This document shows, piece by piece, positions 14,463 to 37,504 of a stretch of DNA of 37,504 nt (its first letter is position 1; each line of letters begins with the position of its first letter). Position numbers and translations under genes: made by a program. This stretch comes from Peptostreptococcus anaerobius VPI 4330 = DSM 2949 (lineage in GTDB: Bacteria > Bacillota > Clostridia > Peptostreptococcales > Peptostreptococcaceae). The notes under the pieces are model-generated. The model was given only the letters and a program-made list of their open reading frames with translations, did not search any database and was not told where the DNA came from. Location: assembly GCF_000381525.1 (NCBI RefSeq), contig NZ_KB906623.1:1-37504 (forward strand), written 5' to 3'.

Positions 14463-14467
14463 CCTCT

Positions 14468-15179: not shown

Positions 15180-15196
15180 AATAACATTACCTGCTT

Positions 15197-15282
15197 ATAA
15201 TTTATATTTTTCTAGCCTTCCTCATCAATATAACAACTGATAATTTATATTTTTCCAGCCTTCCTCATCAATATGACAACTG
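15197..15282. repeat. 43-bp tandem duplication at the cbiE 3' end
   Basis: 15197-15239 and 15240-15282 are two 43-bp copies that differ at only two positions. The right copy holds the last codons and stop of cbiE (stop at 15247-15245). The left copy is now non-coding spacer before cbiT. Confidence 0.9.
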
Positions 15283-17046: not shown

Positions 17047-17054
17047 AGGTCCAC

Positions 17055-17696
17055 CTAGTCCCTAAAATAATAGTATAGTATTGCATTTATTATGGCTGCA
17101 GCTAGGTTGCTACCTCCCTTACGACCTCTTGATACTATATATTCAAGGTCTGATTCCATGAGTTTTTCCTTGGAATCCTCTGCTCCAACAAAGCCAACTA
17201 CTACACCTATAACTGCCGAAGCCCCCAGCTTGTTTTCCTCATCCAGTTCTATTGCCCTATATATGGCTGTAGGTGCATTTCCAAAAATAAATATCTTGTC
17301 ATTCTTGTCCTGACCAGCTATCTCAACCGCCGCCATAGACCTAGTTATCCCCTTTTCCTTGGCAAGCCTTACAGTCCTCTCATCAGATATAAGGCACTCA
17401 TACCCGCATTCCATAGAGTCTAGTAGCCTCTTGTTGATTCCACTAAGGCCCATAGTCGTATCCGTATAGATAGTAGCCTTGTTTTTTAGGGCATTGACTA
17501 TATTTTCTACAGCCTTGTCACTGATCTTGAGTATATCTAAATAGTCAAAGTCAGCCGTAGTATGTATGGCCCTTTTTATTATCATCTCTTCAATTTTAGA
17601 CCTAAACCTATAGTCTGGCCTAGTCTCATCTATTATGCCTTGAATTATCTCAAAGCTCTTGTTTTCAATTAAACTTGGGTCCTTAATATATTCCAT
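17055..17696 (-). CDS. cbiC: Cobalt-precorrin-8 methylmutase
   Basis: 213 residues of the CbiC/CobH family. The enzyme moves the methyl group from C11 to C12, giving cobyrinic acid. The catalytic His sits in RAIHTTADFDYLD (about 47-59). IYTDTTMGLSGINKRLL (about 95-111) and GVVVGFVGAEDSKE (about 164-177) are conserved blocks. It lies between cobD and cbiD with gaps of 8-9 bp. Confidence 0.95.
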   Translation of the reverse strand: MEYIKDPSLIENKSFEIIQGIIDETRPDYRFRSKIEEMIIKRAIHTTADFDYLDILKISDKAVENIVNALKNKATIYTDTTMGLSGINKRLLDSMECGYECLISDERTVRLAKEKGITRSMAAVEIAGQDKNDKIFIFGNAPTAIYRAIELDEENKLGASAVIGVVVGFVGAEDSKEKLMESDLEYIVSRGRKGGSNLAAAIINAILYYYFRD

Positions 17697-17705
17697 CTCG
17701 ACCTC

Positions 17706-18851
17706 CTACAATATTTGTCTTAGAGAATCCACCAAGACCTCGTTTAGATCGTGTGACTTAATCGCCAACCTAAAATGCCTAGGTGTCAGTCCCTCAAAAG
17801 ATGATGCATCCCTGATAAGTATGGATTTTTCCCTTACCATATCCATTTTTAAATCGTGGGCTGTATCATATTTTGACCTATCATTCAAGCTACACAGGAT
17901 ATAGGCTGTATCACTTTTATGTATGTCTATAGCCGACATCCTTGATAACTCATCCATTAGGTATTCTCTTTCTTTTTTGTATGATTTTCTTGTTTTTTCT
18001 AAGAAATCTAGGTCTTCTAGCACTGCCATAGCCCCCGCCTGGGCAAGAGAATTTACAGACCATGGTTCTTGGATAGACCTTACTTTTTCTACTATTGACT
18101 CATCCCTCGCCATCATATAGCCTAGCCTAAGACCGGGCATACCATATATTTTTGTAAGTGACTTGATAATAATAATCTTGTCATAGTCATACTTAAAACC
18201 ACTATTGTAAGAATAACCCTCACAAAAATCCATAAATGACTCATCTATTATTAGGTACTTGCCATAAGTCCTACAGTGGTCCACTAAAAAATCTAGATTT
18301 CTCAACCTAGCATCCGGAGCTCCTGGATTGCATACTACTATAGCCTCCCTAGGGTCTCTTGCTAGGTCCATATCTTCAAAGGACAGGTATACTTTATCAT
18401 CCGAACCATAAATATCCTTCATAGGGGAGATAATAGGTCCCTTGCCACCTATCCTACTCGACCTTATATGTTCTGAATATAGGGGAGATAGAACCCTCAC
18501 CTTGTCGAAAATATCCAACCTAAAAATAAGGCTGATAAGCTCACTGGCACCATTGCCAACACATATATTATCCCTAGACAATAGTCTCTGATTATCTAAA
18601 ATCGAGTCATCAAATCCTGAACCTAAGATATCACAAGACCTCATATATTGCCTATTTATTGATCTGGCTATCTTATCTCTAAGGTCCACATAGTCTATAT
18701 CTGGATAGGCTCCTATAGAATCTATACTATCTATTATAGCTTCTTTTAGGGCCATTGGAGTGACAGGATTGATGTTTGAGCTATAGTCAATCAGGTCAGA
18801 ACCAATATTGAATTGTCTTTTTATATTTTCTGTATCAGCACCATGACTCAT
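17706..18851 (-). CDS. cobD: L-threonine-O-3-phosphate decarboxylase
   Basis: 381 residues of PLP-dependent class I/II aminotransferase fold. It makes (R)-1-amino-2-propanol phosphate for the nucleotide loop. The opening HGADTENIKRQFN and DYSSNINPVTP is typical of CobD rather than HisC. ICVGNGASELISLI (about 96-109) and the PLP lysine in IIKSLTKIYGMPGLRLGY (about 228-245) are present. The upstream 147-bp spacer is low-complexity. Its neighbour cbiB uses the product. Confidence 0.93.
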   Translation of the reverse strand: MSHGADTENIKRQFNIGSDLIDYSSNINPVTPMALKEAIIDSIDSIGAYPDIDYVDLRDKIARSINRQYMRSCDILGSGFDDSILDNQRLLSRDNICVGNGASELISLIFRLDIFDKVRVLSPLYSEHIRSSRIGGKGPIISPMKDIYGSDDKVYLSFEDMDLARDPREAIVVCNPGAPDARLRNLDFLVDHCRTYGKYLIIDESFMDFCEGYSYNSGFKYDYDKIIIIKSLTKIYGMPGLRLGYMMARDESIVEKVRSIQEPWSVNSLAQAGAMAVLEDLDFLEKTRKSYKKEREYLMDELSRMSAIDIHKSDTAYILCSLNDRSKYDTAHDLKMDMVREKSILIRDASSFEGLTPRHFRLAIKSHDLNEVLVDSLRQIL

Positions 18852-18998
18852 TTGTCTACTCCTCTTATTCTTTATTTTTATTCTTATTTATATTCACTTC
18901 TTATTTATATCTATTTATATTCCTTTATTCCATCATTTCTATTTCTTTCCAATTACTTATTTCTAATTTTATATTCCTATAAAACATATATATTATAA
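18852..18998. repeat. Low-complexity AT-rich spacer with short direct repeats between cbiB and cobD
   Basis: The 147-bp gap is almost all T/A/C on the plus strand. TTCTTATTTATAT occurs at 18881-18893 and again at 18898-18910, with further partial copies. No ORF or riboswitch structure was seen. Confidence 0.5.
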
Positions 18999-19976
18999 CT
19001 AGAACACAATCGCTCTAAAGACAAGCAAGGCCAAAAGACTTACTATACTTGTAACATATAGTAGCTTTATTGAAGATAGTATATCCTCAGCCTGAAGGTC
19101 CCTAGTCTTGTCTCCTATAGTTGGCTTGTATACCTCTTGTCCAAAATACACATTAGTACCACCTAATTGTATGCACAGGGCTCCAGCTACTGCTCCTTCT
19201 GAATATGCACAGTTAGGACTCTTGTGATTTTTCCTGTCCCTATATCCTATTTCTAGGCACTTTCTCCAATCATAACCACATATGGCACTAGCTACTGTAA
19301 AAAATAGTAGGGATAGCCTAGCAGGTATAAAATTAAATACATCATCCAATATTGCTGGATACCTGCCTATGTTTATATACTTTTCATTCTTGTAGCCCAA
19401 CATAGAATCCATGGTATTTACCGCCTTATAAACCATCGCTAGGGGAACTCCACCAAGCATGGCAAAAAATATTGGCGAAATAGTTCCATCTACTGTATTT
19501 TCGGCTACCGTCTCAACTGTCGCCCTGATTATCTCGCTCTCACTCAGACTTGAAGTGTCCCTTCCTACAATATAGGAAAGCTGTAATCTGGTTTCTTTTA
19601 TATCACCCTCAATAAGCTTCTTGTATACTTTTTTGGCCTCAAGGGCAAGACACCTTGTAGACAGGCAGGTAGCCATAAGTATAATTGATATGCCAGTGTC
19701 CAATAAAAAGCCCCACAAGGCCCATGCCCCCATTGGTCCTAATATAAGTCCAAATATATTGCTTATAAATATACTCATTGAGTATGTTATACCAACAAGG
19801 ACTAGCCAAATTGCAAGCCCCCCCATCTTCAAAGACTTAAACCTCAACCTGACCAGTCTTTCGAGATACTTTATCAGTCTGCCCATATATATAACCGGGT
19901 GAGGAAACCCCTCTGGATCACCTATTACAAGATCTACAATGAATGCTACAAAAACTACTACTGAAACAACACCCAT
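18999..19976 (-). CDS. cbiB: Adenosylcobinamide-phosphate synthase (membrane protein)
   Basis: 325 residues with several hydrophobic segments. It attaches aminopropanol phosphate to adenosylcobyric acid at the membrane. Family marks are DLVIGDPEGFPHPVIYMGRLI (about 15-35), the ETVAENTVDGTISPIFF stretch (about 151-167) and CAYSEGAVAGAL (about 257-268). It lies 4 bp after cbiA. In some systems this protein is called CobD, not to be confused with the decarboxylase gene next to it. Confidence 0.94.
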   Translation of the reverse strand: MGVVSVVVFVAFIVDLVIGDPEGFPHPVIYMGRLIKYLERLVRLRFKSLKMGGLAIWLVLVGITYSMSIFISNIFGLILGPMGAWALWGFLLDTGISIILMATCLSTRCLALEAKKVYKKLIEGDIKETRLQLSYIVGRDTSSLSESEIIRATVETVAENTVDGTISPIFFAMLGGVPLAMVYKAVNTMDSMLGYKNEKYINIGRYPAILDDVFNFIPARLSLLFFTVASAICGYDWRKCLEIGYRDRKNHKSPNCAYSEGAVAGALCIQLGGTNVYFGQEVYKPTIGDKTRDLQAEDILSSIKLLYVTSIVSLLALLVFRAIVF

Positions 19977-19980
19977 AGGC

Positions 19981-21354
19981 CTAACCCTCTGTATTGCTCA
20001 AAAGGTAGCAAACTATACTTAGGTTGTTGTAAAAATGGACATGTAGGTAGGAAGCCAGAACATTTTTAGATGAATAACCACCTGACCAGACCATTACAGA
20101 ACTAGAAGTAGTCTTTTTCATATCGAATATGGTCTCCATATCAGATATAAATTCTGAATAATGGAATTCATGACCTCGTAATTGTTGACCCTTGTATGAA
20201 ATAAGATTATCCTTCTTTGCTGTGGCAAGACAATAACCAAATCTCTTTAAGCCCTGTGTCATCTGGCTATATCCATCAAGTATACCTACCATTTGATGCT
20301 TATTGCCCTCTTTATTTATAAGGTACTTGCCTAGGTACATAAGTCCACCGCACTCAGCATATATTGGTTTATTAGCTTCATAAAATTCCCTTATACTATC
20401 GAGCATAGTATTGTTAGATTCAAGCTCTTGGGCATATATCTCCGGATAGCCTCCACCTATATACAAAAGGTCAATCTCAGGCAATTTCTCGTCTCTAATA
20501 GGAGAGAAAAATACAAGCTCTGCCCCTATATCCCTTAGTAGGTCTAGGTTGTCCTGATAGTAGAAATTGAAGGCCTCGTCATAGGCTATACCTATTTTCT
20601 TACCTATAGCAAGATTTTTGACTTCGGGGTCATCTAGGAACATTGTCATTTCAAATGAAGAAGTTATAGATTCACTCTCAGCAAGCTCCAATATCCTGTC
20701 TACATCTACATATTTTTCAATAAGTTGAGCCATCTTATCTACTTTTTGAGATAGGTCCTTGTCCTCTTGACACTGGACTAGACCTAGGTGCCTAGATGAC
20801 ATGACCACGTCATCATTAGGAGGTAGATAACCCAATACTTCAATAGCGCAATATTTTTCTATAGCCGCCTTTATCAGTTTATAGTGGTTGGGATTCTTGA
20901 TATTGTTGACTATAACACCAACTATGTCTACAGACTTGTCCATATGCTTGTAGCCCAAAACAGTTGCAGCTGCAGATGCTCCTGTAGCCTTTGCATCTAT
21001 AACTAGTATGACTGGACACTTAAGGACCTTGGCCATTGCCGATGTAGAACACTTGTTGATATCTGAGCCAACTCCGTCATATAGGCCCATAACGCCCTCT
21101 ATTATTGAGATATCCTTCTGGTTTGCTGCCCTTAAAAATATATACTTAATCTGCTCTTCATCTAGCATATAGGCATCCAAATTCCTAGAATGTATACCTG
21201 TAACGTACTTGTGATAGTTTGGATCTATATAATCAGGTCCCACCTTAAATGGCTGAACTTTTTTACCCCTATCGGTTAGGGCCTTCATCAGTCCAAGACT
21301 GACCGTGGTCTTACCAACACCACTATGGGTGCCTGCTATTAGTATTTTTTTCAT
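19981..21354 (-). CDS. cbiA: Cobyrinic acid a,c-diamide synthase
   Basis: 457 residues, full length. An N-terminal dethiobiotin-synthetase-like ATPase begins with GTHSGVGKTTVSLGL (8-22). The C-terminal glutaminase domain has its nucleophile in YAECGGLMYLG and its His in ASYLHVHF near the end. Both halves are therefore present, in contrast to the CobQ encoded just upstream. It amidates the a and c carboxylates of cobyrinic acid using glutamine and ATP. Confidence 0.95.
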   Translation of the reverse strand: MKKILIAGTHSGVGKTTVSLGLMKALTDRGKKVQPFKVGPDYIDPNYHKYVTGIHSRNLDAYMLDEEQIKYIFLRAANQKDISIIEGVMGLYDGVGSDINKCSTSAMAKVLKCPVILVIDAKATGASAAATVLGYKHMDKSVDIVGVIVNNIKNPNHYKLIKAAIEKYCAIEVLGYLPPNDDVVMSSRHLGLVQCQEDKDLSQKVDKMAQLIEKYVDVDRILELAESESITSSFEMTMFLDDPEVKNLAIGKKIGIAYDEAFNFYYQDNLDLLRDIGAELVFFSPIRDEKLPEIDLLYIGGGYPEIYAQELESNNTMLDSIREFYEANKPIYAECGGLMYLGKYLINKEGNKHQMVGILDGYSQMTQGLKRFGYCLATAKKDNLISYKGQQLRGHEFHYSEFISDMETIFDMKKTTSSSVMVWSGGYSSKNVLASYLHVHFYNNLSIVCYLLSNTEG

Positions 21355-21357
21355 AAG

Positions 21358-22323
21358 TTACACCTTTTCTCGTCTAAAAATTATATTATAGATAGCCCTA
21401 ATATCAAGCTTATCTCTTAGTAATTTGGCTAGTCTGTCGTATTCGCACTCTCTTACAAATTTACCTAATTCACTATCATTCATGATATCCAATCCTTGTG
21501 ATAGCCTAAATTCATTCTCTGCTTTTATCCTAGATATTATGTGGTTGCTACCATCACCTAGAGACTTCTCTAGAGAACTGATAAACCTATCCACATTGTC
21601 CCTAGATTTTCCACTAGCCCCATCTTCTTCATCTATATAAATATCTGCATATGGCACAAGTCCCAAGACAGGTATCTTTATTATATCCTCGAGCATCCTT
21701 ATACCATCTTGAAAAGAGTCCTCGTCGCCCCTGAACTTGTTGATTATAACCCCCTTCACCCTTGACCTATCAGACTTGGTCATAAGCTCTAGGGTACCCA
21801 CAATGGAAGCAAATACGCCGCCCCTATCTATGTCTGCCACCAAGATAACCGGTGAATCTGCTATCTTGGCCATCTCCATATTTGATAGGTCAATCTGGTT
21901 TATATTTATCTCAACAGGACTACCTGCTCCTTCTAGGACAACTATATCCACAGATGATTCTAGGTCCTTGTATATAGCTTCAAGACCTGGTCTTAGGTCC
22001 TTTTTTATCTTCATATACTCTCTTGCCCTTAGCGACCTTATGTATTTTCCATTAAATATAAGGTCTGTCATATGATTGTCGCTAGGTTTTAGTAAAATTG
22101 GGTTCATGGATGCAAGTGGCTCTATCCTAGCAGCCCTAGCCTGAGCAACTTGAGCTATGCCCATCTCGCCACCGTACCTATCAAAGGATGAATTTCTTGA
22201 CATATTCTGTGACTTAAATGGAGCAACCCTATAGCCATCATCCGAGATAATCCTACAAATACCAGTTGCTATCATACTCTTTCCCACATTGGATGCCGTC
22301 CCCTGAAACATTATACAAGCCAT
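21358..22323 (-). CDS. cobQ: Cobyric acid synthase lacking the glutamine amidotransferase domain
   Basis: Only 321 residues, while CobQ/CbiP is usually about 490-510. Residues 1-240 are a clean N-terminal synthetase domain: QGTASNVGKS (7-16), PFKSQNMSRNS, VVLEGAGSPVEINI, VADIDRGGVFAS and NKFRGD. It then reaches LGLVPYADIYIDEEDG (220-235). About 180 residues that normally hold the glutaminase (Cys in GICGGYQ, later His) are missing. The extreme C-terminal tail typical of the family is still there (ECEYDRLAKLLRDKLDI at 292-308). This suggests an in-frame internal deletion, not a frameshift. The enzyme normally amidates the b, d, e and g side chains; here it would need free ammonia or a separate glutaminase. 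Confidence 0.88.
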   Translation of the reverse strand: MACIMFQGTASNVGKSMIATGICRIISDDGYRVAPFKSQNMSRNSSFDRYGGEMGIAQVAQARAARIEPLASMNPILLKPSDNHMTDLIFNGKYIRSLRAREYMKIKKDLRPGLEAIYKDLESSVDIVVLEGAGSPVEININQIDLSNMEMAKIADSPVILVADIDRGGVFASIVGTLELMTKSDRSRVKGVIINKFRGDEDSFQDGIRMLEDIIKIPVLGLVPYADIYIDEEDGASGKSRDNVDRFISSLEKSLGDGSNHIISRIKAENEFRLSQGLDIMNDSELGKFVRECEYDRLAKLLRDKLDIRAIYNIIFRREKV

Positions 22324-22964
22324 TAGTCCACCCTCTTCATCATAGGTCTAATAAGAGACTTGTCATAGGGTATATGCCCCATCATGGACATAACAGGAAA
22401 TCCATCAATAAATTCAATCTTGGTTATGGATGCATTTTCCACCTTAAAATGCCAATGAAGACTAGGATTTTTAGCAATTAAGTGAGAGAGTATATTCCTA
22501 ATAGTCCCCATATGAACACATACAAGTACATTATCTACTTCATTACACTCTTTTATAATATGATCTATGCCCCTAGCATTTCTCTCATAGGCCATCTCAA
22601 TATTTTCACCATCTGGGAAGGTATACATAACATCTCCAGTCATCATTCTTTTGAAATCTTCAGGGTATTCACTTTTTATCTCTTCAAAGGTCTTGCCATC
22701 AAATTTACCAAAGTTCATCTCTCTTAGGTCATCAAGCCCTAGCATTTCAAGGCCCAAATACCTCGATACCTCATCCACAGTCTGCCCTGTCCTCTTTAGG
22801 GTAGACGTGTAGATCCTATCTATATCTATATTTTTCAGGTAGGCATTTAACTGCCTAGCCTGTTGTCTTCCAACATCACTTAGGTCACAGTCACTAAAGC
22901 CTGAGTACCTAAAATTTATATTGTCTACGGTATTGCCATGCCTTACCAAGTACAAATTCTTCAT
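22323..22964 (-). CDS. cobC: Alpha-ribazole-5'-phosphate phosphatase (histidine phosphatase family)
   Basis: 213 residues of the phosphoglycerate-mutase-like superfamily. NLYLVRHGNTVDN (3-15) holds the phosphorylated His. CVHMGTIRNIL (about 148-158) holds the second His. It would dephosphorylate alpha-ribazole phosphate or adenosylcobalamin phosphate in nucleotide-loop assembly. Assignment to CobC rests on the position between cobS and cobQ, since the superfamily is broad. It shares one base with cobQ. Confidence 0.85.
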   Translation of the reverse strand: MKNLYLVRHGNTVDNINFRYSGFSDCDLSDVGRQQARQLNAYLKNIDIDRIYTSTLKRTGQTVDEVSRYLGLEMLGLDDLREMNFGKFDGKTFEEIKSEYPEDFKRMMTGDVMYTFPDGENIEMAYERNARGIDHIIKECNEVDNVLVCVHMGTIRNILSHLIAKNPSLHWHFKVENASITKIEFIDGFPVMSMMGHIPYDKSLIRPMMKRVD

Positions 22965-22990
22965 ATCAACCTCTCATTCTAGCTAGTCAA

Positions 22991-23806
22991 CTAGCCTACC
23001 AGTATAAAAATATAGGCTATAAAAATCATCTCACCCACTTCTATACCACAACCTAATATATCACCTGTCAGCCCACCAATCTTCTTGTATACTCCATGCT
23101 TGATCAGATAAGCCAATATACAAGTGATAAATAGGGACAATAAAACCAAAATAATAGATATCATCTGGTTTAATCCAAATATACTAGTGCCTGTCAATCC
23201 AAGAGCCAAAATCTCTAATAGACCTACAAAAACTATAGAAACTATAAGACTAGTCCTATCGCACTTTCCTATAAATACATTTCCCATTCCATTTTCCCTG
23301 GCAGGCCTAGTCCTGTATGTAAGTAAAAGACCTAGGAATCTTCCAAGTACAGGCATTAATACTATAGGCCATGCCATGTCCTTGTCAATAAAACTAGCAA
23401 GCATACATACCTTTAATACTATGAGTAGTATCAAGGAAATACTAGCATTGGTCCCCATCCTAGAGTCCTTCATTATCTCAAGAATCTGGTCCTTACTCCT
23501 ATAGGAAAATATCCCATCAAAGGTATCTGCAAGTCCATCTAGGTGAAGTCCTCCTGTAAGTACAACCTCAACTAGGACTAGCAAGACCCCTGTAACAAGA
23601 CTATTATTATAAAATGCAGGTACAAGTCTCAATATGTAATAAACAAGACCTAGAATCAGCCCTATAACAAGACCTACTAGGGGGAAAAACACAATTCCCT
23701 TGCCAAGATCTGGATCAAACTTTGAATCCTTTTTTATACTTATCCTAGTTAAAAACTGGAGTATATTTATAAATCTTTCAAGGTCTAATAATTCTCTAAT
23801 CTTCAC
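22991..23806 (-). CDS. cobS: Cobalamin synthase (adenosylcobinamide-GDP ribazoletransferase)
   Basis: 271 residues, polytopic membrane protein with about six hydrophobic stretches. LQFLTRISI near the N-terminus and GGLHLDGLADTFDGIFSY (about 85-102) are the acidic motifs of the family. GMGNVFIG and GGLTGDILG (about 243-251) also fit. It joins adenosylcobinamide-GDP (from CobU) with alpha-ribazole, the last assembly step. It lies 8 bp after cobU. Confidence 0.94.
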   Translation of the reverse strand: MKIRELLDLERFINILQFLTRISIKKDSKFDPDLGKGIVFFPLVGLVIGLILGLVYYILRLVPAFYNNSLVTGVLLVLVEVVLTGGLHLDGLADTFDGIFSYRSKDQILEIMKDSRMGTNASISLILLIVLKVCMLASFIDKDMAWPIVLMPVLGRFLGLLLTYRTRPARENGMGNVFIGKCDRTSLIVSIVFVGLLEILALGLTGTSIFGLNQMISIILVLLSLFITCILAYLIKHGVYKKIGGLTGDILGCGIEVGEMIFIAYIFILVG

Positions 23807-23814
23807 TTAACCAC

Positions 23815-24387
23815 CTACTTTATCCTCACTCCTATTGATGATACAACCATATAGACCTGGTCTGATTGGCTGGCTATATACTGGTTGGACCTTCCAACCA
23901 ATTGGGTATAAAATCTAGACAACTTGTTGTAACTTATACCGCCAAGTCCTATCTCATTGGTTACAAGTACTAGGTCTAGGTCCTTATCCCTAACAGATTT
24001 AACAAAGTCCCTTATCTCATTTAAAACCAGGTCCTCTTTTAACCTACACTTGTCCTGGTCTAGACCATCAAAATCCATATCGTCCTCAAATATAATATTG
24101 GATACCATCATAGTCAGGCAGTCAAGCAGTAAAATACCATGGTCAAAATCATCATTAGCTACAATTTGTCCCAAGTTTTTATAGGCCTCCAGTGTAGACC
24201 AGTTTTTGTCTTGTCTGGCTTGTTGGTGAAGTCTGACCTTTTCTCTCATCTCGTCATCATATACACTTGCAGTCGCTATATAGGTGCAAGAACATGACTT
24301 GTCCTGGCTGATCTTAGTAACCAAGTCTTCAGCAAAGGCAGACTTGCCAGAACTAATACCACCTGTCACTAGTATTATTTGTCCCAT
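23815..24387 (-). CDS. cobU: Adenosylcobinamide kinase / adenosylcobinamide-phosphate guanylyltransferase
   Basis: 190 residues. P-loop VTGGISSGKSAFAE (7-20). VRLHQQARQDKNWSTLEAY (about 51-69) corresponds to the guanylylated-His segment, and LVTNEIGLGGIS (about 141-152) is a family block. It phosphorylates and then guanylylates adenosylcobinamide. The 5' end overlaps cobT by 13 bp. Confidence 0.94.
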   Translation of the reverse strand: MGQIILVTGGISSGKSAFAEDLVTKISQDKSCSCTYIATASVYDDEMREKVRLHQQARQDKNWSTLEAYKNLGQIVANDDFDHGILLLDCLTMMVSNIIFEDDMDFDGLDQDKCRLKEDLVLNEIRDFVKSVRDKDLDLVLVTNEIGLGGISYNKLSRFYTQLVGRSNQYIASQSDQVYMVVSSIGVRIK

Positions 24388-25445
24388 AGGCCTAAGACCC
24401 TTCCTATCTCCAAGTCCTTAAACTCTCCCATGTGGTTGTAGGCATATATAGATGAATCAATTATATTCATGGCAAGGGCTGCTCCTGTGCCCTCACCCAA
24501 TCTCATGTCCATATCCAACATAGGTTTTATACCTAATATAGATAGGGCTGTTTCACTACCCTTTTCATCAGACTTGTGAGACATAATCAAGTAATCCTTA
24601 GATCTTGGATTTATCCTATAGGCTATAAGGGCTGCTGCATAGGATATAAATCCATCAACAACTACCGGTATCCTATTGGCTGCACATCCCAGTATCACGC
24701 CGGTCATACCTCCTATATCGAAACCACCAACCTTGGCTAGCACCTCTATACCATCTGTCGGGTTGGGATTGTTTATCTCTATTGCCTTTCTGACAACATC
24801 TGCCTTGTGTTTTACCCTTTCTAGACCTATGCCAGCCCCAACATCTGCAATATCAATAGGATCCTTACCAGACATAACAGACAAAATAGCTGTAGATGGG
24901 GTAGTATTGGATATTCCCATCTCTCCAATACCTATGATCTTGTAGCCTTCAACTATACACTTTTCTGCTATTTCAATCCCTAGTTCTATTGACTTTACAG
25001 CCTCGTCCATTGTCATTGCTGGACCCTTGGCAATATTATCAGTTCCCTGCCTAATCTTATGGCTGACTACACCATACATGGGCTCATCACCTAGTACACC
25101 AATATCTATAGGTATCAGGTCAGTCTTGTTGAACTTTGCCAATACTCCTACACCTGTCAGTCCCCTAGCAAAGTTTTCCAACTGCATCCTAGTTATAATC
25201 TGAGGTTGCGGTGATACACCTTCATCGTGGACCCCGTGGTCTGCCCCAAAGGCTATAATACATTTTTTAGGCTGGTCCTCTATTTTATTTGTACAATAGA
25301 TACCTGCAAGTTTTTTAGTTATATCTTCTAATTGTCCTAGACTGTCCTTGGGATGTATCTTATCGTCCCACCTCTTTTGTGCCCTCTCTATAGCTCTTTC
25401 ATCAAGAGGGTATATGTTTCTTGAAATACTAACTAATAAATTCAA
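24375..25445 (-). CDS. cobT: Nicotinate-nucleotide:benzimidazole phosphoribosyltransferase
   Basis: 356 residues, full length. It activates the lower-ligand base to alpha-ribazole phosphate. FGADHGVHDEGVSPQP (about 67-82), GIGEMGISNTTPS (about 172-184) and the catalytic Glu in RLGEGTGAALAM (about 316-327) are present. The ribosome site before ATG 25445 is weak; the nearest purine run lies about 20 nt upstream. It is the first cobalamin gene of the cluster, only 71 bp after ctpA. No lower-ligand synthesis gene (bza or bluB) is in the window. Confidence 0.94.
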   Translation of the reverse strand: MNLLVSISRNIYPLDERAIERAQKRWDDKIHPKDSLGQLEDITKKLAGIYCTNKIEDQPKKCIIAFGADHGVHDEGVSPQPQIITRMQLENFARGLTGVGVLAKFNKTDLIPIDIGVLGDEPMYGVVSHKIRQGTDNIAKGPAMTMDEAVKSIELGIEIAEKCIVEGYKIIGIGEMGISNTTPSTAILSVMSGKDPIDIADVGAGIGLERVKHKADVVRKAIEINNPNPTDGIEVLAKVGGFDIGGMTGVILGCAANRIPVVVDGFISYAAALIAYRINPRSKDYLIMSHKSDEKGSETALSILGIKPMLDMDMRLGEGTGAALAMNIIDSSIYAYNHMGEFKDLEIGRVLGLWDK

Positions 25446-30470: not shown

Positions 30471-30561
30471 TTAGTATATATTGGACTATTTATTAACAAT
30501 GATACACATGGTATTTTTAAGATCTCGCAAGGAAAAAATATTCATGAGAATAGGAGCAAAT

Positions 30562-31425
30562 ATGAAAGCAAAGGAAAAATATTCTATAGGCGAAGTAGAA
30601 AAAATTTGTAATATACCTATAAAAACTTTAAGATACTACGACTCAATAGACCTAGTAGTGCCATCATTTAGGGATTCTGAAACCAACTACAGGTACTATG
30701 ACAAGGGCCAAATGGTAACTATATGCATAGTCCGTAAACTAAGGATGCTAGGCTTTAGTCTTAAGGAAATAAATAATATCATACATAACAACAAGGCCTA
30801 TAGTCTTGAAGAGAGCATAGACTCCAAAATGGTTGAAATCTCCAAAGAAATTGAAGCCTTACAACAAAAGTACACAGAGGGTTGCAAGCTCTCACAAAGA
30901 TTAAAAAAGGGAGTGGATATCTTATCTCTATACTCTAAGGACGAAGCCGAAGCCAGGGGTATAATTATAGAGGAAATCCCTGAATCCTACCTAATCTACA
31001 CTAGGAAAATTATGAAGAGTTATTCAAATAAAGATGTCTCCTTGGAAAGATGGGCTGAACTAATCAATATGTCCAACCAAACAAATATAGAAGACAAGGG
31101 GTCCATACTTGTAACCTACTACTCAGAACCCTTGGAACAGTTCCTCTACAAGGATATAGATATAGAATTTGCCATGTACCTAGATAGCCATCTCCAAACT
31201 GAAAACTGTAGGAAATTCGGTGGATTTACAGCAGCTACAATGGTCCATGTCGGCGACTACTCAAACATAATAAACACCCACATTGAGATGATTCAGTATA
31301 TAAACAAGAATGGTTATAGGATCAAGGGAGATATTTCTGAAGAGTTTATAATATCTCCCTTTGATGTAACAAACCCTGATGAACACGTTACAAAGGTCAT
31401 CATTCCAATAGAGAAAATCAAATAG
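30562..31425 (+). CDS. MerR-family transcriptional regulator with BmrR/GyrI-like effector domain
   Basis: 287 residues from ATG 30562, which has AGGAG 5 nt upstream; an in-frame TTG at 30481 would add 27 residues that do not fit the family. The N-terminal HTH reads YSIGEVEKICNIPIKTLRYYD, followed by the wing with NYRYYDKGQ. A coiled-coil dimer helix lies at about 80-120. The C-terminal part (about 130-287) has the pattern of GyrI/BmrR drug-binding domains. It faces the CoA-transferase operon with convergent ends, so it is not obviously its regulator. The effector is unknown. Confidence 0.88.
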   Translation: MKAKEKYSIGEVEKICNIPIKTLRYYDSIDLVVPSFRDSETNYRYYDKGQMVTICIVRKLRMLGFSLKEINNIIHNNKAYSLEESIDSKMVEISKEIEALQQKYTEGCKLSQRLKKGVDILSLYSKDEAEARGIIIEEIPESYLIYTRKIMKSYSNKDVSLERWAELINMSNQTNIEDKGSILVTYYSEPLEQFLYKDIDIEFAMYLDSHLQTENCRKFGGFTAATMVHVGDYSNIINTHIEMIQYINKNGYRIKGDISEEFIISPFDVTNPDEHVTKVIIPIEKIK

Positions 31426-31474: not shown

Positions 31475-31507
31475 AAAATAGAAGTGTTAAAACAACACTT
31501 CTATTTT
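31475..31507. terminator. Bidirectional terminator between the MerR gene and the CoA-transferase operon
   Basis: AAAATAGAAGTGTT (31475-31488) and AACACTTCTATTTT (31494-31507) form a perfect 14-bp stem with a 5-nt loop. A/T runs flank both sides. It serves both converging transcripts. Confidence 0.85.
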
Positions 31508-31551: not shown

Positions 31552-32733
31552 TTATAGTATTCCTTCTTCTTTTAACTTTTCAACTTCTTCTTGACTAATG
31601 CCGAATATCTCTGCATTATGCTGGCCTAGAAGTGGTGCTGGTGTGTCTACTGTACCTGGAGTTTCAGATAGCTTCATAACACAACCTTGGAAATACTGGT
31701 CACCAGCAGTAGGATGCTGACAATGAACCATCATTTCACGAGCCTGAATATGTGGATGTTCAATTGCTTCCTTAACATTTAAAACTGGTCCACAAGGTAT
31801 TCCTGCTTCATCCATAATATTTTCTATTTCTTTCTTTGCATAGTCTCTACACCAGTCGGCAATTATGTTCTTTAATTCTGGTTCATAATTGTCACAACGT
31901 AGAGTATTTGTCTTATACCTAGGATCATCTAACAATTCTTCATGGCCTATTGTAGTACAGAACTTAGCAAATAGCCTATCATTACCCACTCCAACAGCTA
32001 CAAATCCATCCTTACATTCATATACATCAAATGGTGCTATAGAAGGGTCTATATTACCATTACGCTCTGGTATTATACCTGCAACTGTGTAGTTAACAAG
32101 GGCATTTTCAAGTAAACTAAATATTGTATCTATCATTGATACGTCAACCAACTGACCCTGTCCAGTTTTTTCTCTATTGTATAGGGCCATCAAGATACCA
32201 ACTGTCAAATAAATTCCTGCAACGTGGTCTGCAACAGAAGGGCCAACCTTTACCGGATTAGTCTCCTTGTATCCAGTAAGATTTATCATACCACCCATAG
32301 CCTGTGCAACTATATCATAACAAGCTCTGTGAGAGATTGGGCTGTTCTGTCCAAATCCTGACCCTGACCCATATATTATAGAAGGGTTTACTTTTCTAAC
32401 TGCTTCATAATCTATACCAAGCCTCTTAGTAACTCCACCCTTGTAGTTTTCTACTAATATATCTGCATCCTTAACCAATTCAAAGAACATTTCCTTACCC
32501 TTTTCTGACTTCAGGTTAAGAGTAGCCCCCTTCTTGTTACGGTTGACATAGCAGTAAAAACCACTTTCTCCACTCTTTTCATCTATTGGTCCCCACTCAC
32601 GACACTGGTCTCCGTTAACCGGTTCTATTTTTATAACCTCTGCACCATAGTCGGCTAACATCATTGTACAGAATGGTCCATTAAGTGCAGAAGTAAGGTC
32701 TATAACTTTTAGTCCTTCAAGAGCTTTCTTCAT
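31552..32733 (-). CDS. Class III (CaiB/BaiF) CoA-transferase
   Basis: 393 residues, the normal length. It moves CoA between carboxylic acids in the cytoplasm. The N-terminal Rossmann part has LKVIDLTSALNGPFCTMMLAD and EVIKIEP. The conserved Asp that forms the acyl-enzyme anhydride is Asp169 in SVADHVAG, and GQGQLVDVSMID follows. It is the last gene of the operon. By analogy with HadA and FldA of the leucine and phenylalanine reductive pathways, it would move CoA from the final acyl-CoA onto a new substrate acid. From the neighbouring lyase genes that substrate may be a beta-amino acid, but its identity is not visible. Confidence 0.92.
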   Translation of the reverse strand: MKKALEGLKVIDLTSALNGPFCTMMLADYGAEVIKIEPVNGDQCREWGPIDEKSGESGFYCYVNRNKKGATLNLKSEKGKEMFFELVKDADILVENYKGGVTKRLGIDYEAVRKVNPSIIYGSGSGFGQNSPISHRACYDIVAQAMGGMINLTGYKETNPVKVGPSVADHVAGIYLTVGILMALYNREKTGQGQLVDVSMIDTIFSLLENALVNYTVAGIIPERNGNIDPSIAPFDVYECKDGFVAVGVGNDRLFAKFCTTIGHEELLDDPRYKTNTLRCDNYEPELKNIIADWCRDYAKKEIENIMDEAGIPCGPVLNVKEAIEHPHIQAREMMVHCQHPTAGDQYFQGCVMKLSETPGTVDTPAPLLGQHNAEIFGISQEEVEKLKEEGIL

Positions 32734-32760
32734 TATTGTTATTCTCCTTTATCCTATTTA

Positions 32761-33138
32761 TTAAAATGTCTCATAGACAAACTGTGCTACTGTAGACAAT
32801 ACTGGTTCTGGAAGTACGTCTATTGAACTTGGGTATGGAGGATCACTAGGTACCTCTATAACCTTGAAGGCTCTAACCTCTATTAATGCCTTGTTTCCTT
32901 CGATCTTCTTTGCTCTTGCTATATATTCCATGTAATCTCCAGCCTGAGATGGAGTGTATAAACGTAACTTCTTAACACCTACACAATGGCCTGTATTGCC
33001 AAATATTTTTGCCATCAATCTCACTGCTGTATCGTTCATAAGAGTGATATTTCTAGCTCCATTTATTAGTCCACCAAGATAAAAAACGTCTCTATTTGAC
33101 ATTCTATAACGGAATGTTACTGTCTGCATATCGTTCAT
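32761..33138 (-). CDS. Small hotdog-fold protein, divergent relative of beta-aminoacyl-CoA ammonia-lyases
   Basis: 125 residues. It resembles 3-aminobutyryl-CoA ammonia-lyase (Kal) and beta-alanyl-CoA ammonia-lyase (Acl) in length and layout. FRYRMSNRDVFYLGGLINGARN (about 9-30) matches their opening with SxxDxxYxGxLVxGA. A TPSQAGDYMEYIARAKKIEGN stretch (about 68-88) matches the VYVGDFMEY block. The acidic CDGDESL-type motif of the partner is replaced by FGNTGHC at about 47-53. It may be a structural or non-catalytic half of a heteromer with the gene product encoded 46 bp upstream. Function is inferred from family memory and context. Confidence 0.65.
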   Translation of the reverse strand: MNDMQTVTFRYRMSNRDVFYLGGLINGARNITLMNDTAVRLMAKIFGNTGHCVGVKKLRLYTPSQAGDYMEYIARAKKIEGNKALIEVRAFKVIEVPSDPPYPSSIDVLPEPVLSTVAQFVYETF

Positions 33139-33184
33139 AATTCTACTCCTTTATAATAAAAATAATTATATTTTAATTTGTTTA

Positions 33185-33658
33185 TTACATTTCATCGTCG
33201 TCTTCTGGGAAGTCGTCAAGATCAAACCAAGGATCTGTAACAAGACCTTCTGGCTGTTCTCCACGCTGTAAGTGCTTCTTAACTACTAGACGAACAAAAC
33301 CTTCTGTACAAAGAACTGGCTCATCAAACCAAACCATATCGCCTTCTTTACAGTCAGTCTTTCCTTCACGAAATGCTGGTGTTGCAAGTTTAAATACTTC
33401 AATCTTACAGTCACGAGAAGAATTACCTACTTTGATAAGTGTAGCCTTGTAGTCTACCATATCTCCTACATATACATCCTTGTAGCATTTAACGTCGTGA
33501 TAACCTAGGCAAAGAGATTCATCACCATCACACAGGATCATTTCCTCTGTCTCAACGTCACCAATGAAATCAAACTGACGTCCAATTGATATTAATCCGT
33601 CTGGATTAGCTGCGTCTGCAGTTGTCATGTTGTAACTTAAATACGATACCTTTCTCAT
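33185..33658 (-). CDS. Beta-aminoacyl-CoA ammonia-lyase-like protein (Kal/Acl family, hotdog fold)
   Basis: 157 residues. ILCDGDESLCLGYHDVKCYKDV (about 42-63) and YVGDMVDYKATLIKVGNSS (about 64-82) strongly recall beta-alanyl-CoA ammonia-lyase of Clostridium propionicum and Kal of lysine fermenters. EPVLCTEGFVRLV near 118-130 fits too. Those enzymes remove ammonia from beta-aminoacyl-CoA to give enoyl-CoA, which Acd/EtfAB of this operon could reduce. The N-terminus (SYNMTTADAANPDGLISIGRQ) departs from the family at the YTGNLVNGA position. A related hydratase activity (beta-hydroxyacyl-CoA) cannot be excluded. It lies between etfA and the second hotdog gene. Confidence 0.72.
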   Translation of the reverse strand: MRKVSYLSYNMTTADAANPDGLISIGRQFDFIGDVETEEMILCDGDESLCLGYHDVKCYKDVYVGDMVDYKATLIKVGNSSRDCKIEVFKLATPAFREGKTDCKEGDMVWFDEPVLCTEGFVRLVVKKHLQRGEQPEGLVTDPWFDLDDFPEDDDEM

Positions 33659-33691
33659 AATTACACCCCCAAGTATATTTTAAATAATGTA

Positions 33692-34798
33692 TTACTTATT
33701 ATTTTTAACCTCTTTAATACTATCTATCATCATCGGTACAATCTTAAATATGTCACCGTTGATACCAATATCAGCACAATCGAATATAGGTGCCTTTTCA
33801 TCCTTGTTTATTGCTATTATCAGTTCAGAATCCTGCATTCCTGCCTTGTGCTGGATAGCTCCTGATATTCCTAGAGCAATGTATATCTTTGGATGTACTG
33901 TCTTTCCTGTCTGACCAACCTGGTGGTCTGCTGATAGCCAACCTGAATCTATAACTGCACGGCTACCACCTACTACACCATTTCCAAATGCATCAGCAAG
34001 ATCTTTAGCTAGCTGTATACCCTTTTCTACGTCTTTGCTTATACCTCTACCTACAGATACTATTACTTCTGCACCTATAAGGTCTACCATGTGTTTAGCT
34101 TCTTTTACGACTTCAAGAACCTTTGTCTTAAGTTCGTCCTTGCCTATATTTACCGGATAGTTTTCAACCTGGCAAGCATTTGCTCTTTCTTCACTATACT
34201 CGCCCTTTTTCATTACACCTGTTCTCACTGTAGACATACATGGTCTAAACCTAGGACATATTATAGTTGCCATTAGGTGGCCACCAAATGCCGGTCTAGT
34301 CATCTTTAAGTTGGTATCTTCCATCTTAAATGTAGTCTTTGATAGGTCCAAAGTAGACGATGTTGCTATAAAGTCAACATAGTTATTCATATCTATATCC
34401 AAGTGAGTACAGTCTGCTGTAAGTCCTGTATGAAGTCTAGCAGCACACCTAGGCGCTAGGTCCCTACCTATATTAGATGCACCTATTAATACAACTTCTG
34501 GCTTTTTATCCATCACTAAGTCACAAAAAACCTTAGTATAGGCATCAGTTGTATAGTCTTTTAGGCTCTCATCGTCACAAATTATAACCTTATCAGCTCC
34601 ATATCCACCTAGGTCTTTGGCTAGGCTCCCAATATCATGACCAAGTATGACACCTACAAGCTGTGAACCTCTCTCGTCAGCCAACTTACGGCCTTCAGAT
34701 ATCAGTTCAAAGTTTGTGTTCATCATGTGGCCATGGCGCTGTTCACAAAACACCCATATATCTTTAAAATCCTCTATTCTAGAACTATTAAATTCCAT
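33692..34798 (-). CDS. etfA: Electron transfer flavoprotein alpha subunit
   Basis: 368 residues. The N-terminal domain includes GHMMNTNFELISEGRKLADE. The C-terminal FAD domain carries VSVGRGISKDVEKGI (about 247-261), GGSRAVIDSGWLSADHQVGQTGKTV (split here as GGSRAVIDSGWLSADH and QVGQTGKTV, about 277-301) and ALGISGAIQHKAGM. It pairs with EtfB to pass electrons to or from the acyl-CoA dehydrogenase. In clostridial relatives such pairs bifurcate electrons from NADH to enoyl-CoA and ferredoxin; this is likely but not proven here. The order acd-etfB-etfA matches the had operon of C. difficile. Confidence 0.94.
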   Translation of the reverse strand: MEFNSSRIEDFKDIWVFCEQRHGHMMNTNFELISEGRKLADERGSQLVGVILGHDIGSLAKDLGGYGADKVIICDDESLKDYTTDAYTKVFCDLVMDKKPEVVLIGASNIGRDLAPRCAARLHTGLTADCTHLDIDMNNYVDFIATSSTLDLSKTTFKMEDTNLKMTRPAFGGHLMATIICPRFRPCMSTVRTGVMKKGEYSEERANACQVENYPVNIGKDELKTKVLEVVKEAKHMVDLIGAEVIVSVGRGISKDVEKGIQLAKDLADAFGNGVVGGSRAVIDSGWLSADHQVGQTGKTVHPKIYIALGISGAIQHKAGMQDSELIIAINKDEKAPIFDCADIGINGDIFKIVPMMIDSIKEVKNNK

Positions 34799-34820
34799 CT
34801 TTGATTGTCTCCTTTCACAA

Positions 34821-35624
34821 TTAGATAAGATGCAGTTTTTCTAATCTATTAGTTAGCTCAGCTACTGTTTCTTTACCATCGCCTTCAAGCATTATTCCTG
34901 TTCCCTTTTGAGGTGGAGTAAATGACTTGAATATATTAGTAGGAGATCCCTTAAGTCCTATAGTTTCAAGGTTGATAAGGGGCTCATCCTTAAGTTCTTG
35001 GAATGAAAGTACAGTCATAGGCTTACTATAGCAGTCCATGATTCCGTTAATAGTCATATAGCGAGGAGATATATCATCATCCTTTACACATGTTATAAGA
35101 CAAGGAGTCTTAGTCTCTATCATCATATAGCCATCTTCTAGCACACGTTTTATAGTCAATTTATTGCCGTCTTTCTTGATTTTGCTAGCATAAGTAACCT
35201 GTGGAACCTCTAATTTTTCTGCTATCTGAGGTCCAACCTGAGCAGTATCTCCATCTATAGCCTGACGACCACAGAATATGATGTCTTCTTCGTTTAGTCC
35301 TAGGTGAGATATTGCTGCAGCTATAATCTGAGATGTAGCATATGTATCAGAACCACCGAATTCTCTAGAAGAAATCAATACAGCGTCATCTGCTCCTATG
35401 GCTAGAATTTCTCTTAGCATACCTTCTGCCTGAGGAGGTCCCATTGTAAGAGCTGTAATCTGGCAGTTCAATTCATCTCTTAATCTTAGGGCCTGCTCTA
35501 GTGCGATCATGTCATCTGGATTTATAATAGCTGCCATAGAGTTACGATTAAGTGTTCCATCAGGGTTAACCGCAACTTTACCAGAAGTATCTGGTACCTG
35601 TTTAACACAAACAAATATTCTCAT
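34821..35624 (-). CDS. etfB: Electron transfer flavoprotein beta subunit
   Basis: 267 residues, the length of clostridial EtfB. MRIFVCVKQVPDTSGKV is the family start. The AMP/FAD-binding region DGDTAQVGPQIAEKLEVPQV (about 124-143) and ALTMGPPQAEGMLREILAIG (about 58-77) are present. It forms a soluble heterodimer with EtfA. It is the second gene, 21 bp after the dehydrogenase. Confidence 0.95.
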   Translation of the reverse strand: MRIFVCVKQVPDTSGKVAVNPDGTLNRNSMAAIINPDDMIALEQALRLRDELNCQITALTMGPPQAEGMLREILAIGADDAVLISSREFGGSDTYATSQIIAAAISHLGLNEEDIIFCGRQAIDGDTAQVGPQIAEKLEVPQVTYASKIKKDGNKLTIKRVLEDGYMMIETKTPCLITCVKDDDISPRYMTINGIMDCYSKPMTVLSFQELKDEPLINLETIGLKGSPTNIFKSFTPPQKGTGIMLEGDGKETVAELTNRLEKLHLI

Positions 35625-35645
35625 TATTCATACACTCCTTTTCTA

Positions 35646-36788
35646 CTATTTCATAACTTCTCTAGCTATAACTACCTTATGTATTTCAGAAGTTCCTTCA
35701 TAAATTTCAGTAATTTTAGCATCACGATACATTCTTTCTAGTGGATAGTCCTTCATATATCCGTAACCACCATGAATTTGGAGTGCCAAGTTTGTCACAT
35801 AACGTGCATTCTCTGCTGCATTTAACTTACACATAGCAGCTTCCTTAGTATGGTTTTTACCAGCATCCTTTAGGTAGGCTGCATAGTAGACAAGAGTCTT
35901 AGCTGCCTCTGTCTTAGTAGCCATGTCAGCTATGTACCACTGGATTCCCTGAAGAGCACCTACAGGCTTTCCAAACTGGACACGTTCCTTAGTATATTTT
36001 ACTGATAGGTCTATGGCACCCTCAGCTACACCTATTGACTGGGCACCTGTTCCGATACGTGCACCATCTAAGGCCTGCATAGCAATCTTAAATCCTTGTC
36101 CTTCCTTGCCTAGTAGGTTGGCCGCTGGAACCCTACAGTCTTCAAATATCAATTCTGCTGTTTCAGATCCATTAAGACCCATCTTTGATTCAATTTTACC
36201 TATGCTAAATCCAGGAGTGCCTTTTTCAACTATTATTGCTGACATACCCCTCAATCCTTTTTCTGGTTGCGTAAGGGCAAACAACAATACTACATCTGCG
36301 CGACTTCCACCTGATATAAAGCACTTAGTACCATTTATGACATATTCATTAGTTTCTGGATCAAGTATGGCTTTTGTCTTGGCAGCACCTGCATCAGAAC
36401 CTGCATTTGGTTCAGTAAGGGCAAATGCACCCAAACTACCGCCCTTTGTAAGTCTAGGTAGAAACGTTTGCTTTTGTTCCTCAGTACCAAACTTATGAAT
36501 GGCATGAGGTGCTATTAAATGTATAGATAATATAGCTGAAGAAGACATACATTTTTTTGCAAACTCAGAAACAGCTATCACCTCTTCAATACTGCCTCCA
36601 CCTGTTCCACCATATTCCTTAGGAATACCTATGCCTGTAAATCCCAACTCTGCCATTTTGCTAAAATTATCTACAGGGAATGTATGGGATAAATCCACAT
36701 CTGCTGCAACTGGCTCTAAGACTTCTTCTGCAAACTGTGCAGCTAACTTTTTAATCATTTCCTGTTCTCTAGTTAATGAAAAATCCAT
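35646..36788 (-). CDS. acdB: Short-chain acyl-CoA dehydrogenase (enoyl-CoA reductase in this context)
   Basis: 380 residues, typical. FALTEPNAGSDAGAAKT (about 116-132) and CFISGGSRADV (about 156-166) are FAD/substrate motifs. LQIHGGYGYMKDYPLERMYRDA (interrupted here as LQIHGGYGYMKD and YPLERMYRDA) and the catalytic Glu in ITEIYEGTSEIH lie near the C-terminus. With EtfAB it would reduce the enoyl-CoA made by the lyase. It is the first gene of the operon, behind a good promoter. The symbol follows AcdB of the had/fld operons; butyryl-CoA dehydrogenase (bcd) is equally possible by sequence. Confidence 0.92.
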   Translation of the reverse strand: MDFSLTREQEMIKKLAAQFAEEVLEPVAADVDLSHTFPVDNFSKMAELGFTGIGIPKEYGGTGGGSIEEVIAVSEFAKKCMSSSAILSIHLIAPHAIHKFGTEEQKQTFLPRLTKGGSLGAFALTEPNAGSDAGAAKTKAILDPETNEYVINGTKCFISGGSRADVVLLFALTQPEKGLRGMSAIIVEKGTPGFSIGKIESKMGLNGSETAELIFEDCRVPAANLLGKEGQGFKIAMQALDGARIGTGAQSIGVAEGAIDLSVKYTKERVQFGKPVGALQGIQWYIADMATKTEAAKTLVYYAAYLKDAGKNHTKEAAMCKLNAAENARYVTNLALQIHGGYGYMKDYPLERMYRDAKITEIYEGTSEIHKVVIAREVMK

Positions 36789-36870
36789 ATGTCATTTCAT
36801 CCTTTCTTGTATTTAATATATACTTATTCAATATTCCTTAAATCAATTACCACCTTAAGTTAAGACTAAG

Positions 36871-36899
36871 TATATATTATATAGTCGCTGTATTGTCAA
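36871..36899 (-). promoter_or_regulatory. Promoter of the acd-etf-lyase-CoA-transferase operon
   Basis: On the minus strand a perfect TTGACA (36899-36894) is followed after 17 bp by TATATA (36876-36871), about 80 bp before the acd start. Upstream (36900-37150) is AT-rich with no gene seen. Confidence 0.55.
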
Positions 36900-37286: not shown

Positions 37287-37504
37287 TTACTTGCCATCCC
37301 TAAAGGGATCTTCATACTCCTTAACACTTAATTTATCCAAAGCTATATCGTGTCTTTCCTGTTCCTGAATATATTTCCTTATTGTTGCCTCATTTAATCC
37401 CACAGTACTTACATAATATCCTTCAGACCAAAAGTGTCTATTTCCAAATTTGTACTTTAAATTTGCGTGCTTATCGAACATCATCAATGCACTTTTTCCT
37501 TTGA
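37287..37504 (-). CDS. tnpA: IS200/IS605-family transposase TnpA, C-terminal part (cut by the window edge)
   Basis: The frame is open from the window end to the stop at 37287 and gives 71 residues. KGKSALMMFDKHANLKYKFGN and FWSEGYYVSTVGLN fit the second half of the Y1 transposase. The catalytic Tyr is in ATIRKYIQEQ. The HUH half lies outside the window. This family moves single-stranded DNA by a cut-and-paste route. No tnpB is present downstream of it. Confidence 0.88.
   Translation of the reverse strand, partial: KGKSALMMFDKHANLKYKFGNRHFWSEGYYVSTVGLNEATIRKYIQEQERHDIALDKLSVKEYEDPFRDGK

Follow-up and report, generated by a model that had tools for sequence, protein, structure and literature searches.

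We describe here a six-gene operon of Peptostreptococcus anaerobius VPI 4330 = DSM 2949 that is located on the minus strand (31552-36788) of the first 37,504 nucleotides of contig NZ_KB906623.1, the whole stretch of DNA that we analysed and refer to as the window. Comparison of its sequence with that of other genomes indicates that this operon quite probably encodes the last, reductive stage in the fermentation of a beta-amino acid, for which reductive pyrimidine breakdown is the usual source. The operon contains genes for an acyl-coenzyme A (CoA) dehydrogenase (acd), two subunits of an electron transfer flavoprotein (ETF; etfB and etfA), two hotdog-fold proteins (hdA and hdB) and a CoA-transferase (cat), with intergenic gaps of 21-46 bases (Table 1). 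An earlier note, made from the letters of the window, had described these six open reading frames in one direction, and their place, strand and families are all borne out. What that note missed is the source of the substrate, the reductive pyrimidine genes.

An AcrCBA-type reductase and a class III CoA-transferase

Support for the function of the reductase comes from curated NCBIfam models. Specifically, acd scores 673.9 bits with the AcrC model (cut-off 640), etfB scores 519.5 with the AcrB model (cut-off 475) and etfA scores 678.9 with the AcrA model (cut-off 600), so that curated equivalog cut-offs support the assignment of all three subunits to the acryloyl-CoA reductase AcrCBA. The Pfam families found in the operon are CoA_transf_3, ETF alpha, ETF beta and acyl-CoA dehydrogenase, and the catalytic Glu364 of the latter is kept in all 39 aligned rows. 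The CoA-transferase exhibits both features of a class III enzyme, membership in the CoA_transf_3 family and a catalytic Asp169. This residue, which the earlier note had called intact, is present and invariant in 36/36 aligned rows (window included, with relatives of >55% identity).

hdA and hdB as a probable paired hotdog lyase

The two small hotdog proteins have no Pfam match at E 0.001. Their closest solved relative is in both cases the beta-alanyl-CoA ammonia-lyase Acl2 (structure 4mtu; E values in Table 1), and both also give matches to the Kal model (NF052388), which substantiates the previous description of two different Acl/Kal-like genes. Among the residues typical of Acl and Kal (Acl2 numbering), hdA retains Thr38, Glu39, Asp45, Asp47, Tyr54, Gln129 and Arg130, and hdB retains Tyr19, Gly21, Gly26 and Pro62 with Glu39 replaced by Arg. 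This pattern of conservation would be consistent with a mixed active site at the hdA/hdB hotdog interface. In a phylogenetic tree hdA and hdB do not group with Acl, with each forming its own starred clade apart from Acl and Kal; the two Acl rows are positioned beside Kal with weaker support (97/70, where the program flags long branches).

Additional analysis of the fetched loci revealed that wherever both hdA and hdB are present (38 loci) the two genes are neighbours, and that they occur as a single fused frame in 13 of these 38. The natural fusions, the strict pairing and the separate clades in the tree all support a heteromeric lyase, and hdA and hdB very likely form a heteromeric enzyme, in agreement with the two-component lyase that had been proposed. 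A fold comparison of the whole fusion returned a double hotdog with acyl-CoA thioesterases at the top and Acl absent among the 50 rows listed, an absence that carries no weight as evidence. A shared fold by itself shows no function.

Duplicated hdA-hdB cassettes are present in loci L034, L035, L036, L049 and L071, with those of the first four flanking the CoA-transferase gene on either side. Another kind of Acl-like hotdog pair is present at L116:17811-18690 and L117:9370-10275. On the Kal model (cut-off 160) the members of the L116 pair reach scores of 134 and 128, and the L117 pair adjoins a different acyl-CoA dehydrogenase; these pairs are possibly another two-component ammonia-lyase.

Recurrence of the operon across genomes

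Named genome contigs were scanned with hdA, which provided 40 loci. The six-gene neighbourhood that the earlier note had suggested seeking in other genomes is found complete in 33 of them, which indicates that the grouping of these genes is more than chance, and hdA, hdB and the CoA-transferase occur together in 37. As for the seven loci that do not contain all six genes, the cluster is near a contig end in L062, L070, L071 and L072, and within the stretches fetched L053 lacks ETF genes and its sole acyl-CoA dehydrogenase is a more distant one, L054 has no reductase genes and L055 has no CoA-transferase. The hosts include Terrisporobacter, Clostridium, Anaerotignum, Maledivibacter, Peptoniphilus, Pseudoramibacter, Eubacterium, Lachnoanaerobaculum and one Desulfovibrio metagenome bin, among others.

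The window hdA exhibits 94% identity to that of three Terrisporobacter-group genomes and 92% to that of G039 from its own genus, and about 60% to that of the sister species G041 and G045. Because it is closer to the Terrisporobacter group than to these sister species, one version of the operon is suggested to have moved by horizontal transfer. A mobile or phage setting was rejected, as 24,901 of the 37,504 window bases were searched with no phage match. A plasmid setting was also rejected, with the same bases giving a single 195-base match (75.6%) in a chromosome-sized Acetoanaerobium record; at the protein level hdA matched two plasmid records at about 30% identity.

A nitroreductase-like gene (L034:10911-11444; under all curated cut-offs) is located 3' of hdB and is also seen in L035, L036, L042, L044-L046 and L049, these loci being from several Clostridium and Anaerotignum.

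Association with reductive pyrimidine degradation

Neighbours of the hdA/hdB loci include PreT, PreA, dihydropyrimidinase and an amidase of the carbamoylase family (ureidopropionase-like), with an NCS1 permease in some. At least two of these four reductive pyrimidine genes are within about 10 kilobases in 16/40 loci, and at least one in 18/40. Among the remaining 24 genomes, 17 encode PreA somewhere (E 1e-90 or better), which in L063 and L066 is next to or inside the fetched stretch. The window genome has a complete pyrimidine set on contig C10, where PreA, dihydropyrimidinase and the amidase are backed by curated models (the amidase at subfamily level only) and where PreT is recognised by its homology to the L042 gene (56%) and by its dihydropyrimidine dehydrogenase domain II. 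In the sister species G041 and G045 the pyrimidine genes and the hdA/hdB part are present in a single cluster, with identities to the window of 62-63% for acd, 46-48% for etfB and 47% for etfA, and the G041 acd is also over the AcrC cut-off (712.5).

The same association is observed when entire genomes are compared. Across a single fixed sample of 291 genomes from Clostridia, 7 have hdA, 13 have the amidase and 5 have both, where about 0.3 is expected (Fisher p 1.5e-6). Without the window's own genus the Fisher p is 3e-4 (calculated with the 'neither' cell entered as 274, the correct value being 273). Two of the hdA genomes do not have the amidase: in G334, dihydropyrimidinase, preT and preA are at most 10 kilobases from hdA, and in G349 no pyrimidine genes occur in the 19 kilobases read. 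Within the window's genus (9 genomes), all four genomes with hdA have full-length PreA. Of the five that lack hdA, three give just a distant PreA match (E 1e-27 to 1e-29), G042 has a shortened PreA frame and G043 has an intact PreA.

The pyrimidine clusters repeatedly contain a gene for a DUF1097 (YcdZ-like) membrane protein (L102:8549-9052, L103:10315-10806 and L115:2772-3257; Pfam DUF1097 in 3/3 tested), and a ycdZ-preT neighbourhood is mentioned in PMC11036815 (partial text). The window genome also has, between preTA and hydA, a sigma-54 activator that resembles the proline reductase regulator PrdR (L102:9567-11147; 368 bits, cut-off 795).

A proposed route from pyrimidines to short-chain fatty acids

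In the route that we propose, PreTA, dihydropyrimidinase and N-carbamoyl-beta-alanine amidase would supply the beta-amino acid, with uracil giving beta-alanine and thymine giving 3-aminoisobutyrate. The class III CoA-transferase would then shift CoA from the product acyl-CoA onto beta-alanine, and probably also onto 3-aminoisobutyrate, after which the hdA/hdB heteromer would remove ammonia to yield acryloyl-CoA (or methacrylyl-CoA). Reduction of acryloyl-CoA or methacrylyl-CoA to propionyl-CoA or isobutyryl-CoA would be performed by Acd and the ETF, a step that is supported by the curated family scores. The CoA of these products would pass to the next substrate, such that propionate (or isobutyrate) leaves, and 3-aminoisobutyrate derived from thymine would go through these same steps. 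The net reaction would be uracil plus four electrons to propionate, CO2 and two ammonia; since uracil takes up four electrons it would therefore be an electron sink.

The passed AcrCBA cut-offs and the pyrimidine-degradation neighbours point to beta-alanine or 3-aminoisobutyrate as the substrate, and not to beta-leucine or beta-phenylalanine; homology to Acl, along with the neighbours and the reductase, indicates beta-alanine and acryloyl-CoA. The three-step beta-amino acid fermentation put forward in the earlier note remains the best reading, with a substrate range that is narrower than was stated there. We give an even chance to a broader proposal, in which Clostridia, oral and gut ones included, would use uracil and thymine as terminal acceptors of four electrons and ferment them to propionate and isobutyrate, with the key enzyme being an obligate hotdog heteromer that arose when a two-site ancestor split into complementary halves, sometimes re-fused.

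Several observations weigh against the proposed route. hdA and hdB score only 64.3 and 58.3 bits on the Kal model, far from its cut-off of 160 (two Acl-like proteins are likewise under it, at 119 and 143). Eight columns conserved in Acl and Kal are missing from both hdA and hdB, and at the position of Acl Glu58, a proposed catalytic residue, hdA has Lys or Glu and hdB has Arg. We infer the substrate from neighbour genes, and the pyrimidine genes of the window genome lie on a separate contig, unlinked to the operon. The amidase occurs without hdA in 8 of the 13 amidase genomes of the Clostridia sample, and G043 of the window's own genus has an intact PreA and no hdA. Moreover, no PreA at E 1e-90 was found in 7/40 genomes (L034, L035, L037, L038, L040, L059 and L071), where other dihydropyrimidine dehydrogenases were not sought, and pyrimidine supply is not universal among carriers of the operon. 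A BrnQ-like transporter gene is present inside the operon in five of these seven (L034, L035, L037, L038 and L040). Carriers lacking PreA may import the beta-amino acid by this type of transporter, which is only suggestive because the BrnQ-like gene is also in loci of PreA-bearing genomes (for example L033 and L036). The core job of the operon would be beta-amino acid fermentation, with pyrimidine breakdown its usual supplier.

A final point against a simple assignment is that classical Acl-like genes coexist with hdA/hdB in Anaerotignum genomes, where hdA/hdB may not simply be the beta-alanyl-CoA enzyme. An Acl-like gene also adjoins hdA/hdB in Peptoniphilus stercorisuis L053 and in genome G191, and since all of these hold both kinds of lyase, a substrate split between the Acl-like enzyme and hdA/hdB is possible. 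Such a division of labour would favour a role for hdA/hdB that is dedicated to the thymine branch, in which ammonia is taken only from 3-aminoisobutyryl-CoA and the product is isobutyrate, as would the BrnQ-like carrier in several operons, a member of a branched-chain amino acid family. We nevertheless consider this role unlikely. hdA and hdB are the only hotdog lyase-like genes found in the window genome, which could then not use beta-alanine in this way, and the reductase scores as an acryloyl-CoA reductase.

The remaining alternatives are clearly less probable than a dedicated thymine branch. In one of them the hotdog pair would be a hydro-lyase with 3-hydroxypropionyl-CoA or a different 3-hydroxyacyl-CoA as its substrate, and the operon would reduce 3-hydroxy acids, which is improbable given that the solved sequence relative is an ammonia-lyase and not a hydratase and that the neighbour genes make beta-amino acids. 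Slightly less credible again is an operon for the use of lysine (through 3-aminobutyryl-CoA) or of a beta-amino acid that an aminomutase makes, for example beta-leucine or beta-phenylalanine. Kal is indeed the nearest curated family model, but hdA and hdB are far under its cut-off, and pyrimidine genes are near 18/40 loci; lysine fermentation itself was rejected as BKACE/Kce was not found in the window genome. Aminomutases were not searched for, and the beta-amino acid need not come from an aminomutase, so an aminomutase-free genome is no argument against the proposed role of the operon. We regard as least credible of all, to the point of near dismissal, that hdA and hdB are thioesterases that release the acid from acyl-CoA and take no part in elimination. 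Although acyl-CoA thioesterases head the fold comparison of the whole fusion, both proteins match Acl2 best in sequence, recycling of CoA could already be done by the CoA-transferase, and an operon that encoded no lyase would have no way to the enoyl-CoA needed by its reductase. Carnitine/crotonobetaine metabolism (a CaiB-like transferase; a 'choline utilisation' regulator match of 99.6 bits, cut-off 450) was ruled out by the pyrimidine neighbours.

Relation to known systems

The three steps proposed for the window operon are the same as those of beta-alanine fermentation in Clostridium (Anaerotignum) propionicum, which employs a CoA-transferase, Acl and AcrCBA and is established (PMC4619459, partial text; PMC4832176). 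The likeness extends to the passed AcrCBA cut-offs and to lyase subunits that are homologous to Acl2. In contrast to C. propionicum, the window operon has two paired, diverged lyase subunits that each form their own clade, a class III CoA-transferase as opposed to Pct, the propionate CoA-transferase that PMC4832176 names for the alanine route, and a type of organization that is linked to pyrimidine genes and to its own MerR-type regulator. Kal of lysine fermentation shares the hotdog superfamily and the reaction type with hdA/hdB, which differ in being far below the Kal cut-off, in comprising two genes and in having no lysine partner Kce in the window genome.

The had and fld operons combine a CoA-transferase, a radical 2-hydroxyacyl-CoA dehydratase and acdB-etfBA. 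They share the CoA-transferase, acyl-CoA dehydrogenase and ETF architecture with the window operon, which has no radical 2-hydroxyacyl-CoA dehydratase among its six open reading frames. The earlier statement that the lyase stands 'in place of' a radical dehydratase is an analogy, as five such dehydratase matches are present elsewhere in the window genome.

Reductive pyrimidine breakdown in clostridia has long been known (PMC7142369, partial text, citing Campbell 1957 and Hilton 1975), and genes of this pathway (PreTA or PydA, PydB, PydC) are the upstream genes that are present in the window genome and linked in the sister species. In the bacterial extensions that have been described, beta-alanine is handled by a transaminase and by semialdehyde enzymes (PydD, PydE; PMC7332683, partial text), whereas the window operon is proposed to use CoA activation and elimination instead. 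CoA-dependent elimination of ammonia from a beta-amino acid is likewise performed by the beta-valine pathway of Pseudomonas SBV1 (BvaA, BvaB1, BvaB2), which differs by having enoyl-CoA-hydratase-type lyases that are each active alone and an ATP-dependent ligase (PMC4619459, partial text). In light of that same partial text, the beta-valine lyases were ruled out as a precedent by their different fold.

Among the matches listed from the open-access literature, a scope that most subscription papers fall outside, no paper was recognised as connecting pyrimidine breakdown with CoA-dependent deamination and acryloyl-CoA reduction, or as reporting a two-gene hotdog ammonia-lyase. This hints that the two-gene lyase and its wiring to pyrimidines are new. 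The statement in the earlier note that no described pathway with this exact gene set is known to its author would accordingly stand for the gene set and wiring, but not for the beta-alanine chemistry, which is already described in C. propionicum. Peptostreptococcus anaerobius is reported to avidly consume uracil (PMC9241533, partial text), which fits a pyrimidine-fed operon provided that the strain studied there carries it.

Promoter, regulator and terminator

The single promoter and the strong terminator claimed previously for the operon are both confirmed (Table 1). Before acd, the pattern TTGAC-N, 19 bases and TA(A/T) is present in 17/20 upstream regions, with a spacing of 18 fitting 2 and a spacing of 20 fitting none; spacings of 21 and 14 also fit 13 and 10 regions as a result of repeated TA letters. 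These regions were hand-picked from acd-bearing loci and include several close relatives, and hence are not independent. When 17-21 bases were allowed the promoter pattern occurred in 13/20 regions, relative to a mean of 0.58 and a maximum of 4 in 500 base shuffles, and a second pattern matched 15/20. The first pattern was composed after the window's promoter alone, and the second pattern and the spacer test after all 20 regions were known. A general scan found 37 promoter-like sites relative to 26.3 in shuffles, and the acd promoter is missing from it because that scan was limited to spacers of 16-18. The operon hairpin is missing from this general scan as well.

A 19-base-pair spacer and a nearby MerR gene are the layout of MerR-activated promoters. 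Convergent with the operon is a gene for a MerR-family regulator, the true start of which is, as judged by eye, probably 30562, and a relative of this regulator is present somewhere in 33/40 loci. This MerR-type activator probably switches the operon on via the 19-base-pair-spacer promoter.

Table 1. Coordinates of the operon and its control elements in the window.
Feature	Position	Strand	Evidence
acd, acyl-CoA dehydrogenase-type acryloyl-CoA reductase subunit, AcrC-like	35646..36788	-	NCBIfam AcrC; Glu364
etfB, AcrB-like electron transfer flavoprotein subunit	34821..35624	-	NCBIfam AcrB
etfA, AcrA-like electron transfer flavoprotein subunit	33692..34798	-	NCBIfam AcrA
hdA, hotdog subunit (157 residues) of proposed beta-aminoacyl-CoA ammonia-lyase	33185..33658	-	Acl2 4mtu E 7e-17; conservation
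hdB, hotdog partner subunit (125 residues)	32761..33138	-	Acl2 4mtu E 9e-10; conservation; hdA fusions
cat, class III (CaiB/BaiF) CoA-transferase, Asp169	31552..32733	-	Pfam CoA_transf_3 E 6e-134
Promoter TTGACA-19 base pairs-TATACT, MerR-type long spacer	36869..36899	-	Upstream-region comparison, alignment of five, shuffles
Terminator hairpin between operon and convergent regulator gene	31475..31507	.	-15.2 kcal/mol, z -7.3 on minus strand
MerR-family regulator with GyrI-like ligand domain, convergent with operon	30481..31425	+	Pfam MerR_1, GyrI-like

Remainder of the window

An anaerobic cobalamin biosynthesis cluster occupies 9415-25445 on the minus strand (with the open reading frame 23815-24387 outside the scan), with members that include CbiK, CbiJ, CbiG, CbiD, CbiC, CobD/CbiB, a CbiA-type protein, CobS, DBI_PRT and several tetrapyrrole methylases. 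Also on the minus strand, at 1974-4780 and 5022-8853, are three genes of a sulfite-reductase-like set (NIR_SIR, NAD-binding, Fer4_22) and an ABC transporter of the metal type that has a ZnuA-like protein. The contig end (37140-37504) has short inverted repeats and a 71-residue open frame (37287-37502, minus strand), which by eye is a candidate IS200/IS605-type element end.

Significance

The proposed pathway would be a complete route by which anaerobes turn nucleobases into short-chain fatty acids, one that can be tested and that has an electron sink extending beyond beta-alanine. It could account for the way in which a Peptostreptococcaceae genome benefits from uracil that is supplied by neighbours. 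A two-subunit ammonia-lyase with partly complementary loss of conserved residues would also be a case in which to study the evolution of hotdog homomers into heteromers. Finally, the operon flags a possible downstream fate of alpha-fluoro-beta-alanine, the product of 5-fluorouracil, as the hdA/hdB enzyme of 5-fluorouracil degraders would, if this proposal is true, meet that compound.

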